From assembly GCA_019348355.1 (NCBI GenBank), contig JAHWJP010000008.1:1-41814 (forward strand): a stretch of 41,814 nucleotides of DNA, given 5' to 3'. Positions 1 to 25,403 of the stretch are shown piece after piece. Each line of letters opens with the position of its first letter. Position 1 is the stretch's first letter. The DNA comes from Actinomycetota bacterium. GTDB lineage: Bacteria; Actinomycetota; Actinomycetes; Mycobacteriales; SCTD01. A program made the position numbers and the translations under genes. The notes beneath the pieces are model-generated. The model did not search any database. It was not told where the DNA came from and saw nothing but the letters and a program-made list of their open reading frames with translations.

Positions 1-522
1 GACCAGATATCGCTCGTCGGCCTCGAAGACGAAGTGATCGCACCCGCCCCGGTGCACTCACCAGGGAACCTCCACGGCCGGGCTTAGCCGGCAGCCCGAC
101 AGCGCGTCGCTGCGGGAGAAGCCCGCGCATCTCTGCCCGTTCTGGCCGCAAGCGAGCGCGCGCCGGTGTTGTGCGCTCATCAAGCAAGAGCGCCATCGCG
201 GCAGATGAGGACGTTGCAGACTGCGACCGGTTCCGATGAGGAGGTTCCCGCATTCGCTCGCGCGCTCAACCTCGCTAGCCTCCTGGCGCGGCGGATGTGA
301 ACGGCGCAGAAGCACCCGCTCGATGCGGGCCAGCCAAGCCGTCGATGCGTTGTTTCTGAACCATGCTCAGGCGGGGGGCGAGCTACGCGGAGACGTCGGG
401 TTAGCCCGCGCACCTGCGGCGGAACCTGCTACTGCCCGGAGCGGGCCACGCATGGTCCTGACTCGTTATAGCGTCCCGTTACCAACGGTGGCCGCCAGGG
501 CTTGCGACGGGGGGGTGGTTCT

Positions 523-1707
523 GTGCCCACTGGATCCGCTCATTCTGCTGCGGGCCAGGCTCTTGGATACTTTCAGCAATGTATGCGCGCTCTTGCTGAG
601 CTCGGCCGTCGGGGGTCAGTTAATCCGTCTGTCGAGATGCGCCTCGAAACACTTGACGACATAGATTTCAGCCAGGGTGGCTCCCCGACCGAGTTACTAC
701 AGACGAAACACCACATTGGTCCGAGCACGCTCACGGTCAACAGTGTCGATCTTTGGCGAACACTCAACGCCTGGATGGATCTCTCTCCGGAGGCACGGCC
801 CGTCCTCAGGCTGGTGACCACGCAGATTGCAGACGGCGACGTGGCCCTTCTCCGTGAAGGGGATGGGCGGGACCCCCTGGCGGCCCTCGAGTCGCTGCTT
901 AGCGCGGCAACCGATTCTGAGAACTCCACCTCAAAGGTTTGGCGTGACCGGTTCCTTGAACTTGAGGACGACGTCCAGATCTCATGCGACCCCTGCCGCT
1001 GGTGGTCTCGATTCCGAACTCGTGCGGGTGTTCCGATACGCGATGACGCCGGGCAAGGAGGCCGCATTCCCTGGTTCAACAAATCGTCGTGGACGATCCT
1101 TGCCCTCCTCAAGGGCTGGTGGGCAGGCATAGCGGTTCGACTGCTCGATAGATCCTTATCTGCCGTTACAGGAAACGACCTGGCGGTGCAAGTCGCTGAC
1201 ATAATCGATCAAATGCGCGCAGATAGTCTTCCTGTCGACCCGGAAGTTCTGCGACGATTCGACGAGTCGATCACGGACGGTTACCAAGACCGTCCATTCG
1301 TCCATCAGCTCGCATGGATTGCGCTGGAGAATGAACGCCTATGGAAGGCGATTCGCGACTACCACCGCGCGTACACCCAGCGGTCATTCTGGCTCCGGTA
1401 TCAACTCGTGGGGGAGCAAGAGTTAGACCGGTTCGCCTTTAAGCTGCACGACGAGTGGGAGCAGGTCTTCGACGAGGAACTCGCCCGCATGGCTGGCGAC
1501 GGCCGCCCAGGTGAAGCCGTCGGTCAGGAGATCCTGAGGCGAGTTGCTCGAGAATGTCGCTCGCGTCTGCGCGAACGATTCGACGAGCCATGGTTCAACC
1601 GCGGCATGCTGCACGCCCTGGCTGACGGGGAGTTGGGACAGCTGGTTGGCTGGCACCCGGAGTTTCAGACCCGCCTAGAAGGGCTATTAGGCGATGTCGC
1701 AATCTGA
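523..1707 (+). CDS. ABC-three component system protein: N-terminal restriction-endonuclease-like domain plus ABC-3C C-terminal domain
   Basis: N-terminus AAGQALGYFQQCMRAL...VEMRLETLDDIDF...ELLQTKHH resembles the DUF4297/PD-(D/E)xK-like D...QxK pattern. C-terminus AIRDYHRAYTQRSFWLRYQLV...ELDRFAFKLHDEWEQVF resembles the ABC-3C CTD. Track ORF starts at TTG 502; GTG 523 after a G-rich SD-like stretch fits the family N-terminus better. Confidence 0.78.
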   Translation: MPTGSAHSAAGQALGYFQQCMRALAELGRRGSVNPSVEMRLETLDDIDFSQGGSPTELLQTKHHIGPSTLTVNSVDLWRTLNAWMDLSPEARPVLRLVTTQIADGDVALLREGDGRDPLAALESLLSAATDSENSTSKVWRDRFLELEDDVQISCDPCRWWSRFRTRAGVPIRDDAGQGGRIPWFNKSSWTILALLKGWWAGIAVRLLDRSLSAVTGNDLAVQVADIIDQMRADSLPVDPEVLRRFDESITDGYQDRPFVHQLAWIALENERLWKAIRDYHRAYTQRSFWLRYQLVGEQELDRFAFKLHDEWEQVFDEELARMAGDGRPGEAVGQEILRRVARECRSRLRERFDEPWFNRGMLHALADGELGQLVGWHPEFQTRLEGLLGDVAI

Positions 1708-2197
1708 TGGGCCACCCCGGAAACGCCGCCGAGCGCCCGAAGCCATCGCGTTGTTCAACGAGGCATTCACGTCCGAGCTCTTGGTCAACGCTGCCTGGGC
1801 GAAGGAACAGGACAGTGGGACGGGGCTTAGCTGGCCCGCATCCTTTTTGATTCTGCCACTCGTCCTGCACCCGCCTACACGCGAGTCGCTCCCGCGGTCG
1901 CCGAACGTGACACTTGCTGCGTGGGCGCTGCGGCACCCGAGCTATTCGCAGGCCATCGACAGTCGAGTCGCGGCTCTCGCCGACGTGACCAAGCGCGCCA
2001 TCCGATTTGGCATGCGGTTCGAGCGTCTCGAGTTGCGCGGGACCGAAGTGGTCGCTACGGCGCGACCTAGGAGTCCGAACGTGCAGACTTGGCCCGAAGA
2101 TCTCACGGGCGCCACTCGGGCCGCGCGCGTCGCAGGCCGGTGGTTTCGTTCGACCGACGTCTACACCGCGTTCAATCTGCTGGGCATCGGAGGCTAA
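1694..2197 (+). CDS. Three component ABC system middle component
   Basis: RAPEAIALFNEAFTSELLVNAAW...GLSWPASFLILPLVLHPPTRESLP...RVAGRWFRSTDVYTAFNLLGIGG matches the middle-component pattern. Overlaps the upstream gene and abuts the downstream ATPase. Confidence 0.82.
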   Translation: MSQSDGPPRKRRRAPEAIALFNEAFTSELLVNAAWAKEQDSGTGLSWPASFLILPLVLHPPTRESLPRSPNVTLAAWALRHPSYSQAIDSRVAALADVTKRAIRFGMRFERLELRGTEVVATARPRSPNVQTWPEDLTGATRAARVAGRWFRSTDVYTAFNLLGIGG

Positions 2198-4159
2198 ATG
2201 CAGATCCTGTCAGTGGGCGTTTATGGGCACCACGGTCGGACGCGGCAAGTCGATTTCGTCGCTGGGAAGCTTAACATTCTGACTGGCAAATCGAAGACTG
2301 GCAAGTCCGCACTTCTGGACATTGTCGAGTTCTGCCTAGGTCGAGACACAGTCACGATTCCAACCGGTGTCATCAGCGACAAAACGGCCTGGTACTCGAC
2401 TCTCGTTGCCTTCGGTGAAGAACGCGTGCTCATCTGTCGACCGAACCCGGAGACGGCCAGTACTAATCGCGGCATGGTCACCATAGGCGGTCGCGACCTC
2501 TTCGCGCCGCCAGATAGTTCGGGTCTAGAAGTGAACGCGGACACTGACGTCGTCAAAGACATCTTGACCGAACGTCTCGGAATTGATCGTTTCACGGTCG
2601 ATGCCGATCAGGGCTCGCTCAGGGACTCCTTCGCCGTGTCCAGCAAGCAGGCGATCTTCTTCAGTTTCCAGAACCAGAATGAGATCGCGAACCGTTCGGT
2701 GCTGTTCCACCGCCAGGTTGAGACCGACATCAAGCCCACGATCAGGGGGGTATTGCCCTACTTCCTCGGTGCAGCAACGCCGGAGCAGTCCGCCATCCAA
2801 CGCCAACTCCTCCAGGCCCGCCGGAGCCTCCGCAGGATTGAGATGGATATCCGTTCGGCGGAAGCTCACTTCAGTCAGCAGAACGACCGGGTGTTCCAAC
2901 TGGTGCGTTCCGCGGTCTCGCTGGGCGTCCTGGACGAGACGGACCAGGTCGTCGGGGACCCGAGCCGGCAGCGCGAAGTCTTGGAACGTGTTGCGGCTTA
3001 TCGGTTGGACTCGGCCGGAGGCGCCACTGGAGATGTCGGGGCGAGGCAGGCGGAACTCCTCGGTGAGGCGACGTCTCTGCGGAGACGGTTGCAGGAACTC
3101 GATGATCAAATCGGCGTCGTTGCCCTTATCGATTCCGAGCAGTCAGATGCCACCTCAGAGCTCGCCATTCAACGGGACCGGCTAACTGCGCTGAACTTGA
3201 TGTTGCCGCGGTCGAAGCAGAATAGCACCGACGTGAGCACGTGCCCTCTTTGCGACCAAGACTTACCGAATCCTGACGAGTCGGTCCAGGCGCTCCAGGT
3301 GCTTCTTGTGGAACTCGATGGAAGGCTCACCAGCTCGCGGAGTTCCTTAGCTCGACGTGAGGCGCTGCTCTCTGAGCTTCGCCGGTCTAGGGATCGCATG
3401 CGAGACGCACTTCGCGAGAACGTTGCCGATCTCGACGCAGCCGCGAATCAAAATCGTGCGCTGGCAGACGGACGCGCGCGCCGGGAGCAGATCGCCTTTC
3501 TTCAAGGCCGTGTCAGCCAGGAACTCGGGGGCGAGGTGCACCTTGTAGGCGGAGTAGGCGATCTTCGCGCTGCAGAACGGCGGATCCGGGGTCAAGTGGC
3601 CAAGTTGGAGGAGTTGTTCGAAGCCGACGATCCGACGGACTCGCTGCGCCGCGCCGTCGACGGTCTGAGCGAGCTAATCACGGACTACGCGCGCGCCCTT
3701 CAACTTGAAGGCTCCGGGTATTCGGCTCGACTCGACCCGATCGAGTTGACCGTGTCGTACCTGCGCCCTGGCGGCCGAGTCACATTGGCGCGCATGGGCA
3801 ACGCTGAGAACTGGGTCGGGTACCACTTAGCTGCACACCTGGCACTTCATCATTGGTTCGTGACGCACGATCGCCCGACGCCCCGGTTCCTCATGCTCGA
3901 CCAGCCGACGCAAGCATTCTTTCCCGAGGAGATAGTTGACGCCGCCGAGGACGAAGACGCGGATTGGTCAGCGGTTCGACGACAATTTGAACTTTTTCGA
4001 GATGTCGTCGCCAGCTTGAACGGCGAACTCCAGGTCATCGTGTGCGATCACGCGAACCTTGCCGACGACTGGTTCCAGGCAGCGATCGTTGACAACTGGC
4101 GGAACGGAGTGGCACTGATTCCGGACGGTTGGCCTACCAAAGACGAGGTCGTGGCTTGA
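2198..4159 (+). CDS. DUF3732-type SMC-like ABC ATPase (ABC-3C system)
   Basis: Walker A LTGKSKTGKSALLDIVEFCLGRD; coiled coil with zinc-hook-like CPLCDQDLP; Walker B-like RFLMLDQPTQAFFPEE; VIVCDHANL near the C-terminus. Confidence 0.87.
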   Translation: MQILSVGVYGHHGRTRQVDFVAGKLNILTGKSKTGKSALLDIVEFCLGRDTVTIPTGVISDKTAWYSTLVAFGEERVLICRPNPETASTNRGMVTIGGRDLFAPPDSSGLEVNADTDVVKDILTERLGIDRFTVDADQGSLRDSFAVSSKQAIFFSFQNQNEIANRSVLFHRQVETDIKPTIRGVLPYFLGAATPEQSAIQRQLLQARRSLRRIEMDIRSAEAHFSQQNDRVFQLVRSAVSLGVLDETDQVVGDPSRQREVLERVAAYRLDSAGGATGDVGARQAELLGEATSLRRRLQELDDQIGVVALIDSEQSDATSELAIQRDRLTALNLMLPRSKQNSTDVSTCPLCDQDLPNPDESVQALQVLLVELDGRLTSSRSSLARREALLSELRRSRDRMRDALRENVADLDAAANQNRALADGRARREQIAFLQGRVSQELGGEVHLVGGVGDLRAAERRIRGQVAKLEELFEADDPTDSLRRAVDGLSELITDYARALQLEGSGYSARLDPIELTVSYLRPGGRVTLARMGNAENWVGYHLAAHLALHHWFVTHDRPTPRFLMLDQPTQAFFPEEIVDAAEDEDADWSAVRRQFELFRDVVASLNGELQVIVCDHANLADDWFQAAIVDNWRNGVALIPDGWPTKDEVVA

Positions 4160-4375
4160 CACACCGAAGGACCTTTCGAGGCGCTGCCGGGTCGGCCGTA
4201 GGACCTGCTGAAACCGCCGTGGCTTCGAAGGATAGGAACGTCCTCGAATACGTCGACGAGCTGTGGCGTGGCGTGGCAGACCCGGAACGTCCACACATCG
4301 GCAGTAGCACGCGACACGCGGCATGAGCGCGCGTTCGCGGTCCGGTCCTAGCTGGACGCCGAATGAGGCCCGGGA

Positions 4376-4393
4376 CGGTAACGACGGTTACCG
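4376..4393. repeat. Inverted repeat CGGTAAC-gacg-GTTACCG upstream of the STAND-like gene
   Basis: Perfect 7-bp arms, 4-nt spacer, about 120 nt upstream of ATG 4516. Confidence 0.4.
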
Positions 4394-4515
4394 GGGACGA
4401 GGGCATGCGTGACAGTCAAGGAGGCTTCGTCACGAGGTGCAGCCAGGAATGGCTATCCCGTGGATTGAGCATGACTGGGCCCACGAGACCAGCGTCGCCA
4501 GGGTAATCTCCCTGC

Positions 4516-7500
4516 ATGTCAGTCCTTGGCCCATTTGACGTGTCCGCGGAACACGTTGCTCGATTGGGCGACAATTTCACGATTTTCATGAATGCGTTAC
4601 TAGAAGCTGAGAAAGCCGCAGCGGAGGCAACGTTTGATTTACAGGTCGACATCCGCCAGACCGTTCCCGACGGCGGAGTGGACGCACTCTCGTTGAGCAG
4701 CACAGGTTCCCTGACCATTCCCACGGGGGACACGGTTTGGCAGTACAAGCGAAGTGATCTCACCCAAAGCAAGGTTAAGGCCGAGTTAAAGAAGGCAAAG
4801 TTTGCCAAGAAGCGCCTCAAGGCAGGCGCCAGCTACCGTCTGGTCCTAGGTGTCCCGATCGGGGGTAAGCAGTTAGTCGCCCGCCGCCTCGGGCTAGAAG
4901 AAGGCCTAGCAACACTGGGCGTGACCTACGATGTGGATTTGCATAAGATTATTGAGGGGAATGAACTGGCGAGATGGGCCAGCACCTTTCCCGCTATTTC
5001 GGTTCTTCTTCAGAGGCTCATACATGGCGCAGGGCCATCCGCCGTCGATTACGACCAGTGGTCATCAAGCAGCACCCATCAAGCACCGTGGGTGACCGTA
5101 AGTTCAAGGGAAAGTACCCGACTTGCCCTTATTGATGCGCTGCAGGATCGAGCGGTAAAGAGCGTTCGTTTAGCGGCTGTCACTGGGGTGGGTGCAACCA
5201 GAGTCGCGTTAGAAGCCGTGCGCGGAAGCGGACTCGAACGCCTTGTGGCCTATGTCCTTAACTCGGACGAGCTGAATACCGACTACCTTGCGAGCCTGTC
5301 GTACGGGAAACGCAAAGCAATCATTGTTGCTGACAATGCAAGTCAGAGCAGACACATGCGACTACTCGAAGCGCTCCCAGTGGACTCGGACATCCGCCTC
5401 CTGACTATCGGGCGCGCCGACGCCTTTGCGGACTTGTCGGGTGGCCCGGTGTTGCCAGTGGAGGCCCTTCCGGAGGACGAGCTTCTTCAAATCCTCGAGT
5501 CAGAAGATCTTTTATGGCCGGAGGCCAGGAGATTCGTGGCTGCCTTCTCTTTTGGAAATTTGTCTTTCGCCAGGCTGATCGCGCAAAGAGTTGCTCATGA
5601 CGACAGCCTGTCCGCAGCAACTGTATTTAGTGAGTCTCTACTGCAGCAGCTGTTCGAAAGTTCACTTCCAGTGGGTGCCGATTTTTTAGGAGCGGCGGCG
5701 CTGGCGCTCTTCACCAGAGTTGGCTTGCGTCAAGAAAAAGCCTTTGAAGCAAGGATCATCGCCGAGGGACTTGGGATTGATCTTGCCTTAATCCAGAGTG
5801 CCGCGAGGACGCTCCGATCGGCGGGTTTTCTGACCGACCGTGGGCGGTTCAGTTTAGTCAGTCCGGAACCAGTCGCTGTTTACCTAGCGGCAAGAGCCTG
5901 GGAAGAGCTTGGCGAGCAGGTCACGCATAGCTTGCTTCCGCTGCTCAAGCCTGACATGGCATACGCGCTATTCGGCAGGCTCGCGAGCCTGGGAACTGTA
6001 GGCAGTTCAAGTATTTACGTACGTGACCTGTTTGCTGATAGTGGCCCATTTGCGTCTCTGTCTTCGCTGTCAGCAGGTACGAACGCAGAAAGTCTTTCCC
6101 AGCTGGCTGTTGCCATGCCGGGAGAGGTGTCGCGGCGCCTGTCCGCACTGATCACCGAGAGTTCGATCGAAGTTTTGAGAGATAACCGACCTGTGCGTCG
6201 GGGGCTCGTTAATAGTTTGCTGAAACTTGCCTGGCGACAGGAGTTCTTTGCCGATTCGGCGGATTCCTTAATGCGACTCGCGGTTGCCGAGAATGAAACC
6301 TACGGAAACAATGCTACAGGCGTTTTCGTGAGCCTGTTCGGCGCAGTTCTGCCAGCCACGAGCGCGTCTCCCGCTCAGAGGCTTGCCTACCTCGGGTCAC
6401 GCGTTGCTTCTGCTGACGTCGCATCACTGACAATTCTCACAGACGCTCTCGGTAATAGTCTGCAAGCGAACGAGTTTGTGATGGTCTCTGGAGAACTGCA
6501 AGGGGGTTCAGTCGCTGCTCGCAGAGGATCCACGTCTACCCTTGAAGAGTTGCACGCATATCGGGCTGGGATTCTTGACATCTTGCTCGCTCTTTCAAGC
6601 TCTTCCCACAATCAGGTCGCCGAAAGGGCACGAACCCTTATTCTGGCTGCTACCCACGGACTGCTCTACGACCCAGACCTCTTGGACGCAGTTGTCGCGC
6701 AAGCGCTAGCAGTGGGCACTGAAGACTTGTTGAACGGGTTACGCCGCGAAGCTGATGAGCTCGGCCGACTTTTCGAAAGGGTCGAGGATCAGGATGATCC
6801 GCGCATATATGGCCTCGACCGGTTGAACATGGTGTTGCCGTCGCCAAACGACGAGCAGGCACTCGATCTTCTCCTGCAGACTGCAAGTTGGGATGCGGAG
6901 GAGACGAATCTGGAACAGAAGCTGCTAGATCTCATTACGCCATCACCGTCGCTGCGAGACGACTTGCTTAATTTGCTGCGAGTCGCAGAGGTCCCTGCTG
7001 CATATTTTGCTGGTCGCGTACTCTGCCGGCTGGACAGTGGTTGGTTTCAGGCAGAGGACGGGCTCGTCGCTCAAGACGTCGCCGTGAGGAATATTCCAGC
7101 CATCGTGGGCGCGCTTTGGTTCATTCATGACACCGCTAGTGCGGACGCCTTCGACCACTTCCTGGCCCAGGATGTCGGGGCTTCTCTTCCGTTGGACACT
7201 CAGATCCAGATTATGGTGCGCGGGCCCATGTCTGACGCGGGACTAGCAAGGTTGCTTGACGCTTCATTAGAACTGAGGCCCGGGATCCTCACACGCCTCA
7301 TATTCGGCTGGCATGGCAGGTTGCCAATTGACAGCCAGGTGTGGCTCCTGAATCGGTGGCTTGTAGGCATCACTGACCAATTTGACTACAGCATGGTGGT
7401 CGACATGGTCAGCATGTGGCTTCATAAGGAAGCCGAAGCGCCGCCGCAACTTATCTTGCCCCTTGACGAGCTCGTTCTAATGCGACGCAGATTCCCAAGT

Positions 7501-8112
7501 GTGGGGCAGGAGGCTTGGGATTGGTCACGGCTCGTCTCGAAGCGGCTGCCAGAACTTGCTCCGAGTGTTATGGATCTCCTCTTCGACTTGATGGTCTCGG
7601 GTGAAATCTATGCGTTTGACGGCAGTCAGGACGGCAAAACACTTCGGGAGTGCGTTGCGGCTGCACCGTCCGCGGCATGGTCGCGATTGGCATTACAGCT
7701 CGAGAGTCCGAAAAGGAGAGCTTTTGTTGGGCTCTCTTTGCGCGGCTGGGCTTTAGATGCCATTCCGGTGAGCGAGATCCTCGATTGGGTAGGCAATTCC
7801 ATCGAGCGTGCTCAGTCTGTCGCGAATCTCGCGCCGGTTGGCGATAAGGAACTTCACCCGCTCGCTAATCATCTGCTCGACAGATTCGGCGACGATCACG
7901 GTGTCCAAGGAAGTCTCTATGGGACGCTGACTACCGGGATTTTCTCGGGCAACGAGTCTGACCGGCTGCTGCGGTTTCAGGAGCAGGTCACGAGTTGGCT
8001 CAGCAGCCCGGATATCACAGCTGGTGCCACGGCTTGGTGTCGCAAGATGATCGAAGTCTTCAAGCGTCAGCGGGAACTAGCCCTTCAGCGGGAAGCCGAG
8101 CGCGACCTGTGA
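4516..8112 (+). CDS. Large STAND-like NTPase-fold protein with N-terminal PD-(D/E)xK nuclease-like domain and long alpha-helical C-terminus (putative anti-phage protein)
   Basis: N-terminus ...VPDGGVDAL...DTVWQYKR (D...QxK). Central VRLAAVTGVGATRVALEAV aligns with G.xGKTRxALEA but with K to A. Walker B-like KAIIVADNA; LLTIGRADAF; long helical C-terminal region. Confidence 0.62.
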   Translation: MSVLGPFDVSAEHVARLGDNFTIFMNALLEAEKAAAEATFDLQVDIRQTVPDGGVDALSLSSTGSLTIPTGDTVWQYKRSDLTQSKVKAELKKAKFAKKRLKAGASYRLVLGVPIGGKQLVARRLGLEEGLATLGVTYDVDLHKIIEGNELARWASTFPAISVLLQRLIHGAGPSAVDYDQWSSSSTHQAPWVTVSSRESTRLALIDALQDRAVKSVRLAAVTGVGATRVALEAVRGSGLERLVAYVLNSDELNTDYLASLSYGKRKAIIVADNASQSRHMRLLEALPVDSDIRLLTIGRADAFADLSGGPVLPVEALPEDELLQILESEDLLWPEARRFVAAFSFGNLSFARLIAQRVAHDDSLSAATVFSESLLQQLFESSLPVGADFLGAAALALFTRVGLRQEKAFEARIIAEGLGIDLALIQSAARTLRSAGFLTDRGRFSLVSPEPVAVYLAARAWEELGEQVTHSLLPLLKPDMAYALFGRLASLGTVGSSSIYVRDLFADSGPFASLSSLSAGTNAESLSQLAVAMPGEVSRRLSALITESSIEVLRDNRPVRRGLVNSLLKLAWRQEFFADSADSLMRLAVAENETYGNNATGVFVSLFGAVLPATSASPAQRLAYLGSRVASADVASLTILTDALGNSLQANEFVMVSGELQGGSVAARRGSTSTLEELHAYRAGILDILLALSSSSHNQVAERARTLILAATHGLLYDPDLLDAVVAQALAVGTEDLLNGLRREADELGRLFERVEDQDDPRIYGLDRLNMVLPSPNDEQALDLLLQTASWDAEETNLEQKLLDLITPSPSLRDDLLNLLRVAEVPAAYFAGRVLCRLDSGWFQAEDGLVAQDVAVRNIPAIVGALWFIHDTASADAFDHFLAQDVGASLPLDTQIQIMVRGPMSDAGLARLLDASLELRPGILTRLIFGWHGRLPIDSQVWLLNRWLVGITDQFDYSMVVDMVSMWLHKEAEAPPQLILPLDELVLMRRRFPSVGQEAWDWSRLVSKRLPELAPSVMDLLFDLMVSGEIYAFDGSQDGKTLRECVAAAPSAAWSRLALQLESPKRRAFVGLSLRGWALDAIPVSEILDWVGNSIERAQSVANLAPVGDKELHPLANHLLDRFGDDHGVQGSLYGTLTTGIFSGNESDRLLRFQEQVTSWLSSPDITAGATAWCRKMIEVFKRQRELALQREAERDL

Positions 8113-15648: not shown

Positions 15649-17722
<2,074 letters not shown>

Positions 17723-20044: not shown

Positions 20045-20596
20045 TCACGTCACGCCGCGGCGGTCGGCTGGAGTACGAAACGGTGCGGCCTCCACCGCTG
20101 ACCACGGCCCACCTTCGTACCGCCACAGCGCGAGTCCCTGCGCCGTCACGTCGAAGCGGTGGAAGCCGGCGCTCAGCTGCGCGTGCAGCCGTCGGGCAGC
20201 AGCCGGCTCGACCTTGTTCTGCACCGTCACGTGTGGTGCGAGCCGCTGACGGTCCTGGGCGGTGAGCCACGGCTGCCACTGTGCCGAGAGGCCGGCATGC
20301 AGGTCGCTCACCTCGGCCGCGGCCAGCTCGAAGGCCACCCCGCGGCCGAGCGACCGCACACCGGTCACGGCGAGGGGGAACGGTTCTCGCTCGGCGGCTG
20401 CCCGGATGTCCACGGTCACCTGCTCGAGCCGGTCCCCGGGCAGGGCGTGGAACAGCGTCACATGGGCGGCGAGGTGGTTGCGCTCCGGCGGGAAGTGCTT
20501 GCCGCGCAGGACGTCGAACCACTCCTGCGATGCGGCGTCGAGCATCAGCGTCAGGACCAGCGGCGCCGAGATCTGCAGCACGGGCGCATCGGTCAC
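20045..20596 (-). CDS. 2'-5' RNA ligase / 2H phosphoesterase family protein
   Basis: Two HxT motifs: AAHVTLFHALPG and APHVTVQNKV; about 183 aa. Confidence 0.82.
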   Translation of the reverse strand: MTDAPVLQISAPLVLTLMLDAASQEWFDVLRGKHFPPERNHLAAHVTLFHALPGDRLEQVTVDIRAAAEREPFPLAVTGVRSLGRGVAFELAAAEVSDLHAGLSAQWQPWLTAQDRQRLAPHVTVQNKVEPAAARRLHAQLSAGFHRFDVTAQGLALWRYEGGPWSAVEAAPFRTPADRRGVT

Positions 20597-21857
20597 GGCG
20601 GCTTGTCACCCCGCAATCGCTCCTGCTCGACGGTTGCCTCGAGGTCGCGCAGCCGGGCGAGCCCGGCCAGCGGCTGCCGCATCCGAGAGTTGTCGCGCAG
20701 GGCCTCGGCGTTGCGGTCGAGGAAAGCCCAATAGCCAGCCGTGTAAGGGCAGGCGGTGGGACCGACCCTGACCTTCGGGTCGTACGCGCAATTCCCGCAG
20801 TAGTCGCTCATCCGGTTGAGGTACGCGCCGCCGGCGGCGTACGGCTTGGTGGCCATCAGTCCGCCGTCCGCGTGCTGGCTCATGCCCGTGACGTTGGGCA
20901 GCATCACCCAGTCGTAGCCGTCGACGAACGCCTCGTGGAACCAGGCGGTGAGCTGCGCCGGATCCCAGCCCCGCTGCAGCGCGTAGTTGCCGAGCACCAT
21001 CAGCCGCGGGATGTGGTGCACCCAGCCCGCTCGCGAAGATCGCGCAGGACCGATGACAGGCAGTTCGCGACGACCTCTCCGCCCGCGTCGAGATCGCGAA
21101 ACCACGTCGGCAAATTTCCGCCCGTGAACAGGGCGTTGCCGAAGCGATAGTCGTCGGGGACGTGCCAGTAGATCGACCAGATGTACTCCCGCCAGCCGAT
21201 CACCTGCCGGACGTAGCCCTCGACCGACGACAGCGGGGCTGCCCCGTCGCGGTAGGCGGCTTCAGCGGCGTGCACGCACTCCAACGGGTGCAGCAGCCCG
21301 AGGTTGAGGGCGGGCGACAGCGCGCTGTGCGCCATCCAGGGGTCGGCGCCGAGCATGGCGTCCTCGGTCGGCCCGAAGTGCGGGAACCGGTGCTCGACGA
21401 AGTGGGCGAGTGCCGTCAACGCCTGGGTGCGGGTCGCCGGCGCCCAACGCGGTGCATCTTCCCCGACGAAGCTGACCCGGCCGTCACGTTCCCAGCGATC
21501 CAGGTCGGCACGGACCTCGGCGTCGATGTCGTCCTCGTCCGGGAGCCAGGGCCCGGTCAACCCCAAAATGGTGGTCCGCGGGGGCGGTTCGCGATTGTCG
21601 TGATCGAAGTTCCAGCGCCCGCCGACGGGGTCGGTTCCCTCCATGAGCAGGTCGTGCCGGGTCCGTTGCCAGCGGTAGAAGTCCTCCATCAGCAGCCGCC
21701 GCCGTCCGTCGGCCCAGTCGGCAAAGTCCTCCCGGCTGGCGGCGAAGCCGCGGGGCGGCAGAACCGGCAGACCACGGGCGCGTACGAACCGGTCGGCCGC
21801 CCAGGATGTGGTGCCCGCTTGACCTGGCCCCTGGGGCCAGATGTGGAGTGTGGTCAT
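20593..21857 (-). pseudogene. FeS-type cryptochrome/photolyase, frameshifted and N-terminally truncated
   Basis: Frame 1 (21000..21923 track ORF): MEDFYRWQRTRHDLLMEGTDPVGGRWNFDHDNREPPP ... ANCLSSVLRDLRER. Frame 2 (20593..21105 track ORF): GWVHHIPRLMVLGNYALQRG...WVMLPNVTGMSQHADGG...SDYCGNCAYDP...ACPYTAGYW. One extra C in the CCC run at 21026-21028 would fuse them. The N-terminal Rossmann/antenna domain is missing. Confidence 0.8.
21824..21840. promoter_or_regulatory. Perfect 17-bp palindrome CTGGCCCCTGGGGCCAG upstream of Cys-rich ORF
   Basis: 8-bp perfect arms around a single T, 43 nt upstream of ATG 21884, overlapping a TTGACC (-35-like) hexamer at 21819-21824. Confidence 0.45.
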
Positions 21858-21883
21858 GACCCGATCCCGGAGGGAGGTGACAC

Positions 21884-22027
21884 ATGACCACCACACAGCC
21901 CGAGGAGACCAAGGACGAGGCATGCGAGTGCGGATGCGCTTGCTGCGCAGCGCCGTCGAGCGACGAGCAGCAGCAGGCTCAGACCGATGAGGCCGCCGCC
22001 GCCTGCAACTGCGGCTGCGGCAAGTGA
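21884..22027 (+). CDS. Small cysteine-rich (metallothionein-like) protein, 47 aa
   Basis: Manual translation MTTTQPEETKDEACECGCACCAAPSSDEQQQAQTDEAAAACNCGCGK*; 8 Cys; strong SD GGAGGGAGGTGA at 21869-21880; terminator directly downstream. Absent from the supplied ORF track because of its length. Confidence 0.78.
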   Translation: MTTTQPEETKDEACECGCACCAAPSSDEQQQAQTDEAAAACNCGCGK

Positions 22028-22030
22028 ATC

Positions 22031-22075
22031 GTGCTCGGTGGCCGGCATTCCTCCAAGACTCCGGCCACCGAGCAC
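22031..22075. terminator. Strong (bidirectional) terminator hairpin
   Basis: Perfect 15-bp arms GTGCTCGGTGGCCGG / CCGGCCACCGAGCAC with 15-nt loop, followed by CTCTT; lies between convergent genes. Confidence 0.85.
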
Positions 22076-22082
22076 CTCTTGA

Positions 22083-23696
22083 TCAGGCCTTGAAACGCAG
22101 TGCCTTCCGCACCCAGTCGAGCGTCTGGTCGGCCCAGCCGAGGATGTCCAGTGTCGACCTCAGTAGCTGCGGCGGGTGCCGGACGAGAGTGTCCCGCAAG
22201 AGCAGACGCTCGAAGTCGACGGAGACCGGATCGGTGCGCAGGGCGCCGCTGCCCTGCAGGAACTCCACGCCGGCGAGCCGCATGATGTTGACCATCTCCT
22301 GCGCGATCATCCCGTAGCAGATGGTGGTCGGGTGCACACCGTCGAGCGAGAACAGCCCGCCGGTCGCCCGCCCGCCCTTGCCGTCGCCGGTCAGGAACCG
22401 CGAATCGGGTACGGGGTCCAGCGCGGCCAGCGACGGCGGCAGCGGATAGGGCGTCCACCACGAGGGGCGGGCGTTCGGGTCGTCGATGTAGCGGCGGGAG
22501 GCGAGCCGGTCCAGCAGCCCGGCGATGTCGAGCAGGTACCAGTCGCGGCCTGCTTCGCGGCCCTGCCGCACGTGTCCCTCGATCGCCTCGTTGTAGAGGT
22601 CGATGGCCGCGTCGACCGCTTGTGCCTCTGCGCCGGTGATGTGCTCGTCCTGTGCCGGGTTGAACGCCGACGCCGCGATCCAGGGGCGGCTGTAGTAGGG
22701 GAAGTAGGGCGAACCCGGCGTGGTCTTGCTGCCGAGGCCTCGGGCCACCGGCGCGATGGTCACGTGTGGCACGGTGCACCAGATGACGTGGCGGGCGTTC
22801 ACCGGCTCGACGGCCCGGACCAACTCGGCGTACTCGATCCGGAAGTGCTCGGGCTGCCAGACGGTGTAGGCGTTCTTGGCGGTCAGGTCCTGGAAGTCCT
22901 CGCCGCTCCAGGCGACCTTCAGCCTGGTCACGCTGCCCAGACAGTTGTTGGCGCCGAGGAACACGATGAGCGTCTCGATGCCGGGCTCGCCTGCGGCTGC
23001 GCCCTGCTCGCCGAGTGCCTTCGCCGCGTCGAGCAGGGTCTGCTGGCTGGTCGACGTCGACCAGTGCGGATAGACGTGCAGCGCGGCGCGCTGGACGTGG
23101 TTCTCGACGACCTGGGAGAGCAGATCGTCCTTGGGCGTCGCGACGGCCGCCTCGCAGCCGGCAGCGGTCGAGCTGAGGGCGTCGCGCAGATCCCACCCGT
23201 AGACCGCGAGTGCGTGGTTGTAGGCACGGACGACTGGAGCGACCCGACCCGGACCGCGCTCCCAGTAGTCCTCGACGCCGTCCATCCACGACCGCGCCCG
23301 GAACAGCGCGAGCGGCAGCTCCCACGGGCTCAGGTCGCGGCCGTACCGCTCCTCGAGCTCGCGCAGCAGGAACTCCAGGTTCAGCGGCAGCCCGCCGCCG
23401 GGCCCGCCGTACCGCGGGTAGCGGTAGGAGTCCGACCAGCCCAACTCGTGGGCGATGATCGCCGGGTAGGACAGGTCGGTGGCGAACACGGCCCCGCTCT
23501 GGAAGCCGTGGGTGAGCGAGTCGCCGAGAGCCACCAGTCGGTGCGGCGGGGTGGTCGTGCGTACGGGGCGGTCCACCTCGACGCCGAGCGTCGGGTCGAA
23601 GACCGGCGTCCGGCCCTCGCGGTCCAGCTGCTCGCGCACCTCCTCCGGGAGCCCAGGTGCGAGTCGCGCGTGCGTCCCGTGCGGTGTGTCAGCCAT
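22083..23696 (-). CDS. SGNH/GDSL-family hydrolase
   Basis: RLVALGDSLTHGFQSGAVF (GDSL block), FLGANNCLG (GxN block), C-terminal DGVHPTTICYGMIAQEM (DxxH). Start ATG 23696 preferred over the longer track ORF. Confidence 0.85.
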   Translation of the reverse strand: MADTPHGTHARLAPGLPEEVREQLDREGRTPVFDPTLGVEVDRPVRTTTPPHRLVALGDSLTHGFQSGAVFATDLSYPAIIAHELGWSDSYRYPRYGGPGGGLPLNLEFLLRELEERYGRDLSPWELPLALFRARSWMDGVEDYWERGPGRVAPVVRAYNHALAVYGWDLRDALSSTAAGCEAAVATPKDDLLSQVVENHVQRAALHVYPHWSTSTSQQTLLDAAKALGEQGAAAGEPGIETLIVFLGANNCLGSVTRLKVAWSGEDFQDLTAKNAYTVWQPEHFRIEYAELVRAVEPVNARHVIWCTVPHVTIAPVARGLGSKTTPGSPYFPYYSRPWIAASAFNPAQDEHITGAEAQAVDAAIDLYNEAIEGHVRQGREAGRDWYLLDIAGLLDRLASRRYIDDPNARPSWWTPYPLPPSLAALDPVPDSRFLTGDGKGGRATGGLFSLDGVHPTTICYGMIAQEMVNIMRLAGVEFLQGSGALRTDPVSVDFERLLLRDTLVRHPPQLLRSTLDILGWADQTLDWVRKALRFKA

Positions 23697-23837
23697 GTCG
23701 CCCCCCTGACGGCGCACCCCCCCGGCCCGCCTGGCACCTGAGCGTCCTCCGATGACGTCGCGCGCGTCAACCTCAGCGCCCTCGGACTAGGCTTCGACAA
23801 CCGCTTCCGACCGCCCACCTCGAAGTACTGGGGCCGC

Positions 23838-25403
23838 ATGTTCGACACGCTGTCCGACCGGCTCGACAAGGTCTTCACCTCCCTGCGGGGCAAGGGCCGA
23901 CTGTCCGACGCCGACATCGACGCCACCGCCCGCGAGATCCGCATCGCCCTGCTCGAGGCCGATGTGGCGCTGCCCGTCGTCAAGGCCTTCATCACCGCCG
24001 TGAAGGAGCGCGCGCGTGGCGTGGAGGTCAGCCAGGCGCTGAACCCGGCCCAGCAGGTCGTCAAGATCGTCAACGAAGAGCTGATCGGGATCCTCGGGGG
24101 CCAGACCCGGCTGATCCGCTACGCCAAGACGGCGCCGACGGTGATCATGCTGGCCGGCCTGCAGGGGGCCGGCAAGACGACGCTCGCCGGCAAGCTCGCC
24201 AAGCACCTCAAGGCCCAGGGCCACGCCCCGCTCCTGGTGGCCTGCGACCTTCAGCGCCCCAACGCCGTCCAGCAGCTGCAGGTGGTCGGTGCCCAGGCGG
24301 GGACCGACGTCTACGCGCCCTATCCGGGCAGCGGGGTCGGCGACCCGGTCGACGCGGCGCGCACGGCCCTCGAGCATGCCCGGCGGATGAACTACGACGT
24401 CGTCGTCGTGGACACCGCGGGCCGGCTCGGGATCGATGCCGAGCTCATGCAGCAGGCCGCCGACATCCGCGACGCCGTCCAGCCCGATGAGGTGCTGTTC
24501 GTGGTCGACGCGATGATCGGCCAGGACGCCGTGGTCACCGCCCAGGCGTTCCAGGACGGTGTCGGCTTCACCGGTGTGGTGCTCACCAAGCTCGACGGTG
24601 ACGCCCGCGGTGGCGCCGCGCTGTCGGTGCGGCACCTGACCGGCCAGCCGATCCTGTTCGCCTCGACCGGTGAGAAGCTCGGCGACTTCGACGTCTTCCA
24701 CCCCGAGCGGATGGCCTCCCGCATCCTCGGCATGGGCGACATGCTCACCCTGATCGAGCAGGCCGAGCGGCACTTCGACGCCGACGAAGCCGAGCGGATG
24801 GCCGGCAAGCTGGCCAGTGGCGAGAGCTTCGACCTCGAGGACTTCCTCGAGCAGATGATGCAGGTCAAGAAGATGGGCTCGCTGACGAGCCTGCTCGGGA
24901 TGCTGCCCGGCATGGGCCAGATGAAGGATGCGCTCGCGCAGATCGACGACAAGGACCTCGACCGCATCGCCGCGATCATCCGCTCGATGACGCCGCAGGA
25001 GCGGCGTACGCCCAAGATCCTCAACGGTTCGCGCCGCTCCCGGATCGCCAAGGGGTCCGGCGTCACGGTGACCGAGGTCAACAACCTCGTCGACCGCTTC
25101 TACGACGCGCAGAAGATGATGAAGCAGATGGGCGGCATGGCCGGGATCCCCGGCCTGCCGGGCATGGGCCGCAAGCAACGGTCGGCCAAGAAGCAGCAGG
25201 GGAAGAAGGGCAAGAAGGGTCCGGGCCGGGCCGGAGGCGGTCCCAGCTCGGCCGGTTCGCCCAAGGTGCCGGCCCAGCCGAAGGCACTGCCTCAGGGGAT
25301 GCCTCAACTGCCGCAAGGCTTCCCCCAACTGCCCCCGGGCTTCCCGCCGGCTCCCGGCGAGGATCTGCCCCCTGACCCGTTCGGACTGCGCCGCCCCCGC
25401 TAG
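23838..25403 (+). CDS. ffh: Signal recognition particle protein Ffh
   Basis: MFDTLSDRLDKVFTSLRGKGRL; MLAGLQGAGKTTLAGKLAKHL; DTAGRLGID; TKLDGDARGGAALS; M domain MKQMGGMAGIPGLPGMG. Confidence 0.97.
   Translation: MFDTLSDRLDKVFTSLRGKGRLSDADIDATAREIRIALLEADVALPVVKAFITAVKERARGVEVSQALNPAQQVVKIVNEELIGILGGQTRLIRYAKTAPTVIMLAGLQGAGKTTLAGKLAKHLKAQGHAPLLVACDLQRPNAVQQLQVVGAQAGTDVYAPYPGSGVGDPVDAARTALEHARRMNYDVVVVDTAGRLGIDAELMQQAADIRDAVQPDEVLFVVDAMIGQDAVVTAQAFQDGVGFTGVVLTKLDGDARGGAALSVRHLTGQPILFASTGEKLGDFDVFHPERMASRILGMGDMLTLIEQAERHFDADEAERMAGKLASGESFDLEDFLEQMMQVKKMGSLTSLLGMLPGMGQMKDALAQIDDKDLDRIAAIIRSMTPQERRTPKILNGSRRSRIAKGSGVTVTEVNNLVDRFYDAQKMMKQMGGMAGIPGLPGMGRKQRSAKKQQGKKGKKGPGRAGGGPSSAGSPKVPAQPKALPQGMPQLPQGFPQLPPGFPPAPGEDLPPDPFGLRRPR

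Follow-up and report, generated by a model that had tools for sequence, protein, structure and literature searches.

A 47-residue cysteine-rich open reading frame at a rearranged actinobacterial locus as a candidate gene for a metallothionein-like peptide

Results and Discussion

The analysis of a stretch of 41,814 nucleotides from an Actinomycetota bacterium (contig JAHWJP010000008.1, the whole stretch being called the window) points to a small Cys-rich open reading frame, hereafter the Cys ORF, at positions 21884..22027 of the + strand, recognised from its sequence, codon choice and rarity. We propose, at a probability of about one half, that it is a real, translated and stand-alone gene for an orphan, lineage-restricted and cytosolic peptide binding metals by its thiolates (Cu(I), Zn or Cd). 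The reading frame is intact from the ATG to the TGA and its translation is MTTTQPEETKDEACECGCACCAAPSSDEQQQAQTDEAAAACNCGCGK, which confirms the peptide, the coordinates, the start and the eight Cys in two clusters of the original prediction. The Cys residues are found at positions 14, 16, 18, 20, 21, 41, 43 and 45 (8/47, 17%) and form five CxC and one CC motifs. The first cluster, CECGCACC, covers residues 14-21 and the second, CNCGC, residues 41-45, both being separated by an acidic Gln/Ala linker with 19 Cys-free residues. As counted by eye, His, Phe, Trp and Tyr are absent from the peptide, whose net charge is approximately -7, and no targeting signal is evident by eye at its N-terminus.

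The main rival explanation, which we consider rather unlikely, is that the Cys ORF has no function, being a fortuitous or decaying ORF left at a rearrangement scar and translated little or to no effect. A strong and well-placed Shine-Dalgarno sequence argues against it: GGAGGGAGGTGA is found at 21869..21880 on the + strand with a GGAGG core (21873-21877) placed 6 nt ahead of the ATG, the spacing from the end of the whole string being 3 nt instead of the 4 nt first given. The frequency of comparable ORFs argues in the same direction. A filter retaining ORFs of at most 60 aa with at least 7 Cys and at least 5 CxC, chosen after the Cys ORF was known, selected one ORF in the window and none in 400 random windows from an order-2 Markov model (16.7 Mb); among 107 real control loci not picked by any Cys pattern (484 kb), it selected a single ORF, devoid of a Shine-Dalgarno sequence and made of (CP)n.

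The codon choice was evaluated on synonymous codons alone, a test which is blind to an odd amino-acid make-up. The synonymous codons of the Cys ORF differ from the background (p 0.0024, or p 0.011 with different training genes) and are not unlike those of genes (p 0.29 and 0.086). The two competing ORFs, at 21841-21990 on the + strand and 21854-22075 on the - strand, gave p values of 0.91 and 0.27 against the background and of 0.000 against coding sequences for both. Only the frame of the Cys ORF, among the overlapping frames tested, has thus a gene-like codon choice, and this is modest evidence for a gene which counts against the absence of function. On the other side, the bare Cys pattern in DNA was found in 1/397 genomes of the order and the reversed control gave 3 hits, so the pattern by itself is not rarer than when reversed, as the rival would have it. 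Since the filter was post hoc and the bare Cys pattern does not stand out from this control, the weight rests on the ORF, the Shine-Dalgarno sequence and the codons together. Given the rarity in random windows and the gene-like codons in one frame only, a chance origin of the Cys ORF is unlikely, and we infer that its translation is likely. The proposal of a real, unannotated small gene is therefore fairly well supported by the Shine-Dalgarno sequence, the codon choice and the rarity.

The searches for relatives of the peptide are more favorable to the rival without function. No Pfam family (E<=1) and no PDB chain (E<=10) matched the 47-aa peptide, and NCBIfam gave nothing beyond noise, the sole match being a putative sactipeptide (E 0.87, 9.7 bits for a cut-off of 60). 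No match was obtained by tblastn of plasmids and phages, and two scans of viral contigs for the exact peptide gave 0 and 0. Six-frame searches, each of which took in the own genome, were performed on samples partly overlapping for the class, the phylum and the order. In 41 relatives, 29 genomes (29/41) had something at E<=10 with a best non-self E of 0.013, and the translation of 19 non-self loci (L002-L020) from the start of the match, a rough check in which some frames were printed without the match, gave no similar small Cys-rich ORF. The class (394 genomes) gave the own sequence only. In the phylum (386 genomes), one match besides self (E 8e-4) falls inside a dnaX-like gene and its translated frame does not reproduce the alignment, and in the order (387 genomes) three matches besides self, all in one genus, are antisense to a TetR-type gene with loss of the Cys pattern. 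As these four are the only non-self matches of the phylum and order searches, the Cys ORF is an orphan at this sampling; the search for a homologue in actinobacteria, planned as a check of the original prediction, returned no acceptable one in samples from the genus to the phylum of up to 394 genomes.

In DNA of the genus, the Cys pattern itself was found in 1/9 genomes, the four other matches falling in a repeat of low complexity within the own genome. It was found in at least 116 stretches of bacterial genome contigs and in 42 stretches of viral contigs; 142 in-frame readings (many of them repeats) among the matches listed were overwhelmingly low-complexity or in the wrong frame when judged by eye, none being a comparable small ORF, and the one notable exception was the tail of a MerR-like protein (L126, described below). 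Across 85 locus records, five small Cys-rich ORFs with a Shine-Dalgarno sequence were found, namely the Cys ORF and four in which the Cys are spaced less regularly, and a literature search by titles and abstract openings gave no bacterial peptide with such a Cys pattern.

The genomic context is also in agreement with the rival, the left neighbour of the Cys ORF being a broken gene. A remnant of a photolyase-related gene (DPRP, PF04244), identified by Pfam and by alignment to relatives, lies at 21003..21857 on the - strand and its C-terminal part is found in another frame at 20593..21021 (- strand), with a frameshift near 21020. Approximately the first 95 residues are missing, since the full-length proteins of relatives begin to align only at 21809. 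An error in the assembly of this fragmented genome (259 contigs) could account for the frameshift and is harder to accept as the cause of the missing N-terminus. The DPRP gene is common elsewhere (99/249 genomes of the order, own included) and intact copies exist in the order. On the other side, a GDSL-like lipase/esterase gene with a weak Pfam match (22083..23717, - strand) is convergent to the Cys ORF and is found in 1/40 other genomes. The left side of the locus carries ligT (2'-5' RNA ligase) and, before it, the DPRP gene, and the next listed + strand gene past the Cys ORF is ffh at 23838, 1.8 kb away. The loci of relatives were collected around ligT, ffh and the GDSL match, some of them extending only 1.5 kb past the match; by tblastn (E<=1e-3) in these loci, DPRP is never beside ligT or ffh, the Cys ORF is absent and the GDSL gene is present only in one of them (L051) and in the own locus. 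The Cys ORF sits at a rearranged spot, the break marking where this ORF with its upstream DNA starts. When an ORF at such a scar is strain-specific, it could have arisen by chance or be dying.

Elsewhere in the window, a low-GC island at 502-8112 (approximately 56-64%, the remainder of the window having 67-80%) holds three large ORFs, encoding an LmuA-like protein with an ABC-3C CTD7, an LmuB-like protein with DUF3732 and a 1198-aa PD-Lambda-4_A-like protein, and resembles an anti-phage defence cluster of the Lamassu/ABC-three-component type. At 17049-17722, two adjoining and highly similar PII-type (GlnB/GlnK) genes are flanked by amtB-like and glnD-like genes (named by eye).

A sigma-70-type promoter scan upstream of the Cys ORF found none, which again favors the rival without function; by eye, a weak -35-like hexamer TTGACC is present at 21819..21824 (+ strand). 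A perfect 17-bp palindrome, CTGGCCCC-T-GGGGCCAG (that is, CTGGCCCCTGGGGCCAG), is found just upstream of the Cys ORF at 21824..21840, approximately 15 bp from the end of the DPRP homology, and is a possible operator. The exact sequence does not recur in the own genome and is absent from 8 other genomes of the genus; with one mismatch allowed, the own genome has one further such place and these 8 genomes have none. Downstream, an inverted repeat with a perfect 15-bp stem (22031-22045 / 22061-22075) around a 15-nt loop begins 3 nt past the stop of the Cys ORF, and RNA folding of this hairpin gave -35.5 kcal/mol with a z of -5.5. The strong terminator attributed to the Cys ORF alone is in part retained: the perfect hairpin after the stop is present, but a scan for the terminator consensus found none there and a T-run is absent on either strand. 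Moreover, because the hairpin sits between the Cys ORF and the convergent GDSL gene ending at 22083, it is not clearly that of the Cys ORF and is possibly a shared bidirectional terminator without a T-tract.

Returning to our proposal of a metal-thiolate peptide, metallothioneins in the broad sense are small proteins with approximately 15% Cys or more, CxC and CC motifs and few or no aromatic residues. The peptide corresponds to this composition with 47 aa, 17% Cys, five CxC, one CC and neither F, W, Y nor H. The metallothionein-like character originally attributed to it holds for the composition (Cys-rich, CxC and CC, no His or aromatics, acidic Gln/Ala linker), and no known metallothionein model was matched. 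The product would be an intrinsically disordered, cytosolic thiol peptide, the two CxC clusters and the flexible acidic linker of which could wrap ions of soft metals, Cu(I) being the most likely one and Zn(II) and Cd(II) the alternatives, and it would act in metal buffering. Translation of the peptide, its binding of metals, the metal chosen and a role in buffering are all inferred. Cu(I) is a first guess based on the Cys order, the absence of His and metallothionein chemistry, and the function is a guess since no relative was found. Among the genes of the window, several of which were named by eye, no metal gene was recognised, so nothing local hints at a particular metal. Points against the metallothionein reading include no family match, no homologue or conservation, no metal gene recognised in the window and a palindrome that is not repeated as a regulon.

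SmtA/BmtA-type bacterial metallothioneins, cyanobacterial and from Pseudomonas, which we take to be those of Pfam Metallothio_Pro, are like the Cys peptide small and Cys-rich, and a metal-thiolate chemistry would be expected for both. The Cys peptide differs by the lack of His and by eight Cys in another order, and it falls outside this family with no Pfam or PDB match at the thresholds given above. MymT, with 53 aa, is also a short actinobacterial Cys-rich peptide of similar size, whereas its Cys order, as generally described, is unlike that of the 47-aa peptide, for which NCBIfam gave no MymT-type match. The fungal copper metallothioneins of the Neurospora type are of the CxC type and, from their general descriptions, share with the Cys peptide the CxC clusters, Gly/Asn between Cys and the absence of aromatics, whereas the Cys peptide is longer and bacterial, with two clusters and a 19-residue linker. 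One published account describes metallothioneins as low-molecular-weight Cys-rich metal sequesterers, with a conserved Cys distribution shared by those of Pseudomonas and cyanobacteria, a Cys9His cluster in the Pseudomonas one and a role in copper detoxification for MymT of Mycobacterium tuberculosis (PMC7387436). A further resemblance was observed in a Chloroflexota MAG (L126, 2749-3336, - strand), where a MerR-like regulator (domain assigned by eye) carries a metallothionein-like Cys tail, CDCGCGGSGCNCGCSCC...ACGCGCC, and adjoins a gene that looks, by eye, like one for a P-type metal ATPase. This location indicates that such Cys clusters occur in bacterial metal circuits; the match to the 47-aa peptide is weak (7.2 bits), and the two sequences, which are unrelated, resemble each other without being homologous.

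In a second rival explanation, in our opinion improbable, the peptide is a thiol redox buffer or a Zn/Fe-S binding adaptor and not a detoxifying metallothionein. The same composition would serve, with eight Cys, an acidic character and no hydrophobic core, but no fold or partner is suggested, and CxCxC clusters that lack His and aromatics are seen more typically in metallothioneins. A RiPP precursor with an acidic leader and a Cys-rich core is very improbable: its leader-like N-terminus and the noise-level sactipeptide match are countered by the distribution of the Cys over the middle part and the end of the peptide, with no single core, and by the genes of the window (several named by eye), among which no radical SAM, YcaO, lanthipeptide synthetase or RiPP peptidase was recognised. 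Least probable of all is a leader attenuator in which ribosomes stalling on Cys codons would control a downstream gene, as suggested by the hairpin just past the stop and by the small Cys-rich uORFs, also in high-GC DNA, reported to precede cysteine or hypothetical genes in mycobacteria (PMC4633059), because unlike these leaders the Cys ORF has no co-directional gene next to it, the convergent GDSL gene at 22083-23717 being followed by ffh (+) at 23838, 1.8 kb off.

Conclusions

We put forward only tentatively that the metal-thiolate peptide proposed here represents a new type of bacterial metallothionein with its own Cys order (CxCxCxCC-19-CxCxC) and no His, recently born or acquired at a scar of the genome, confined to a single lineage and unannotated because of its size below 60 aa. 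If the peptide does not bind metals, the Cys ORF is one more orphan small ORF. If it does, an unclassified, His-free Cys order would join the few bacterial metallothioneins, a group in which, according to one account, the biological function had been investigated for only two members as of 2020 (PMC7387436). Metal binding would further suggest that rearranged DNA can give rise to metal-thiolate peptides which are restricted to a lineage and escape annotation.
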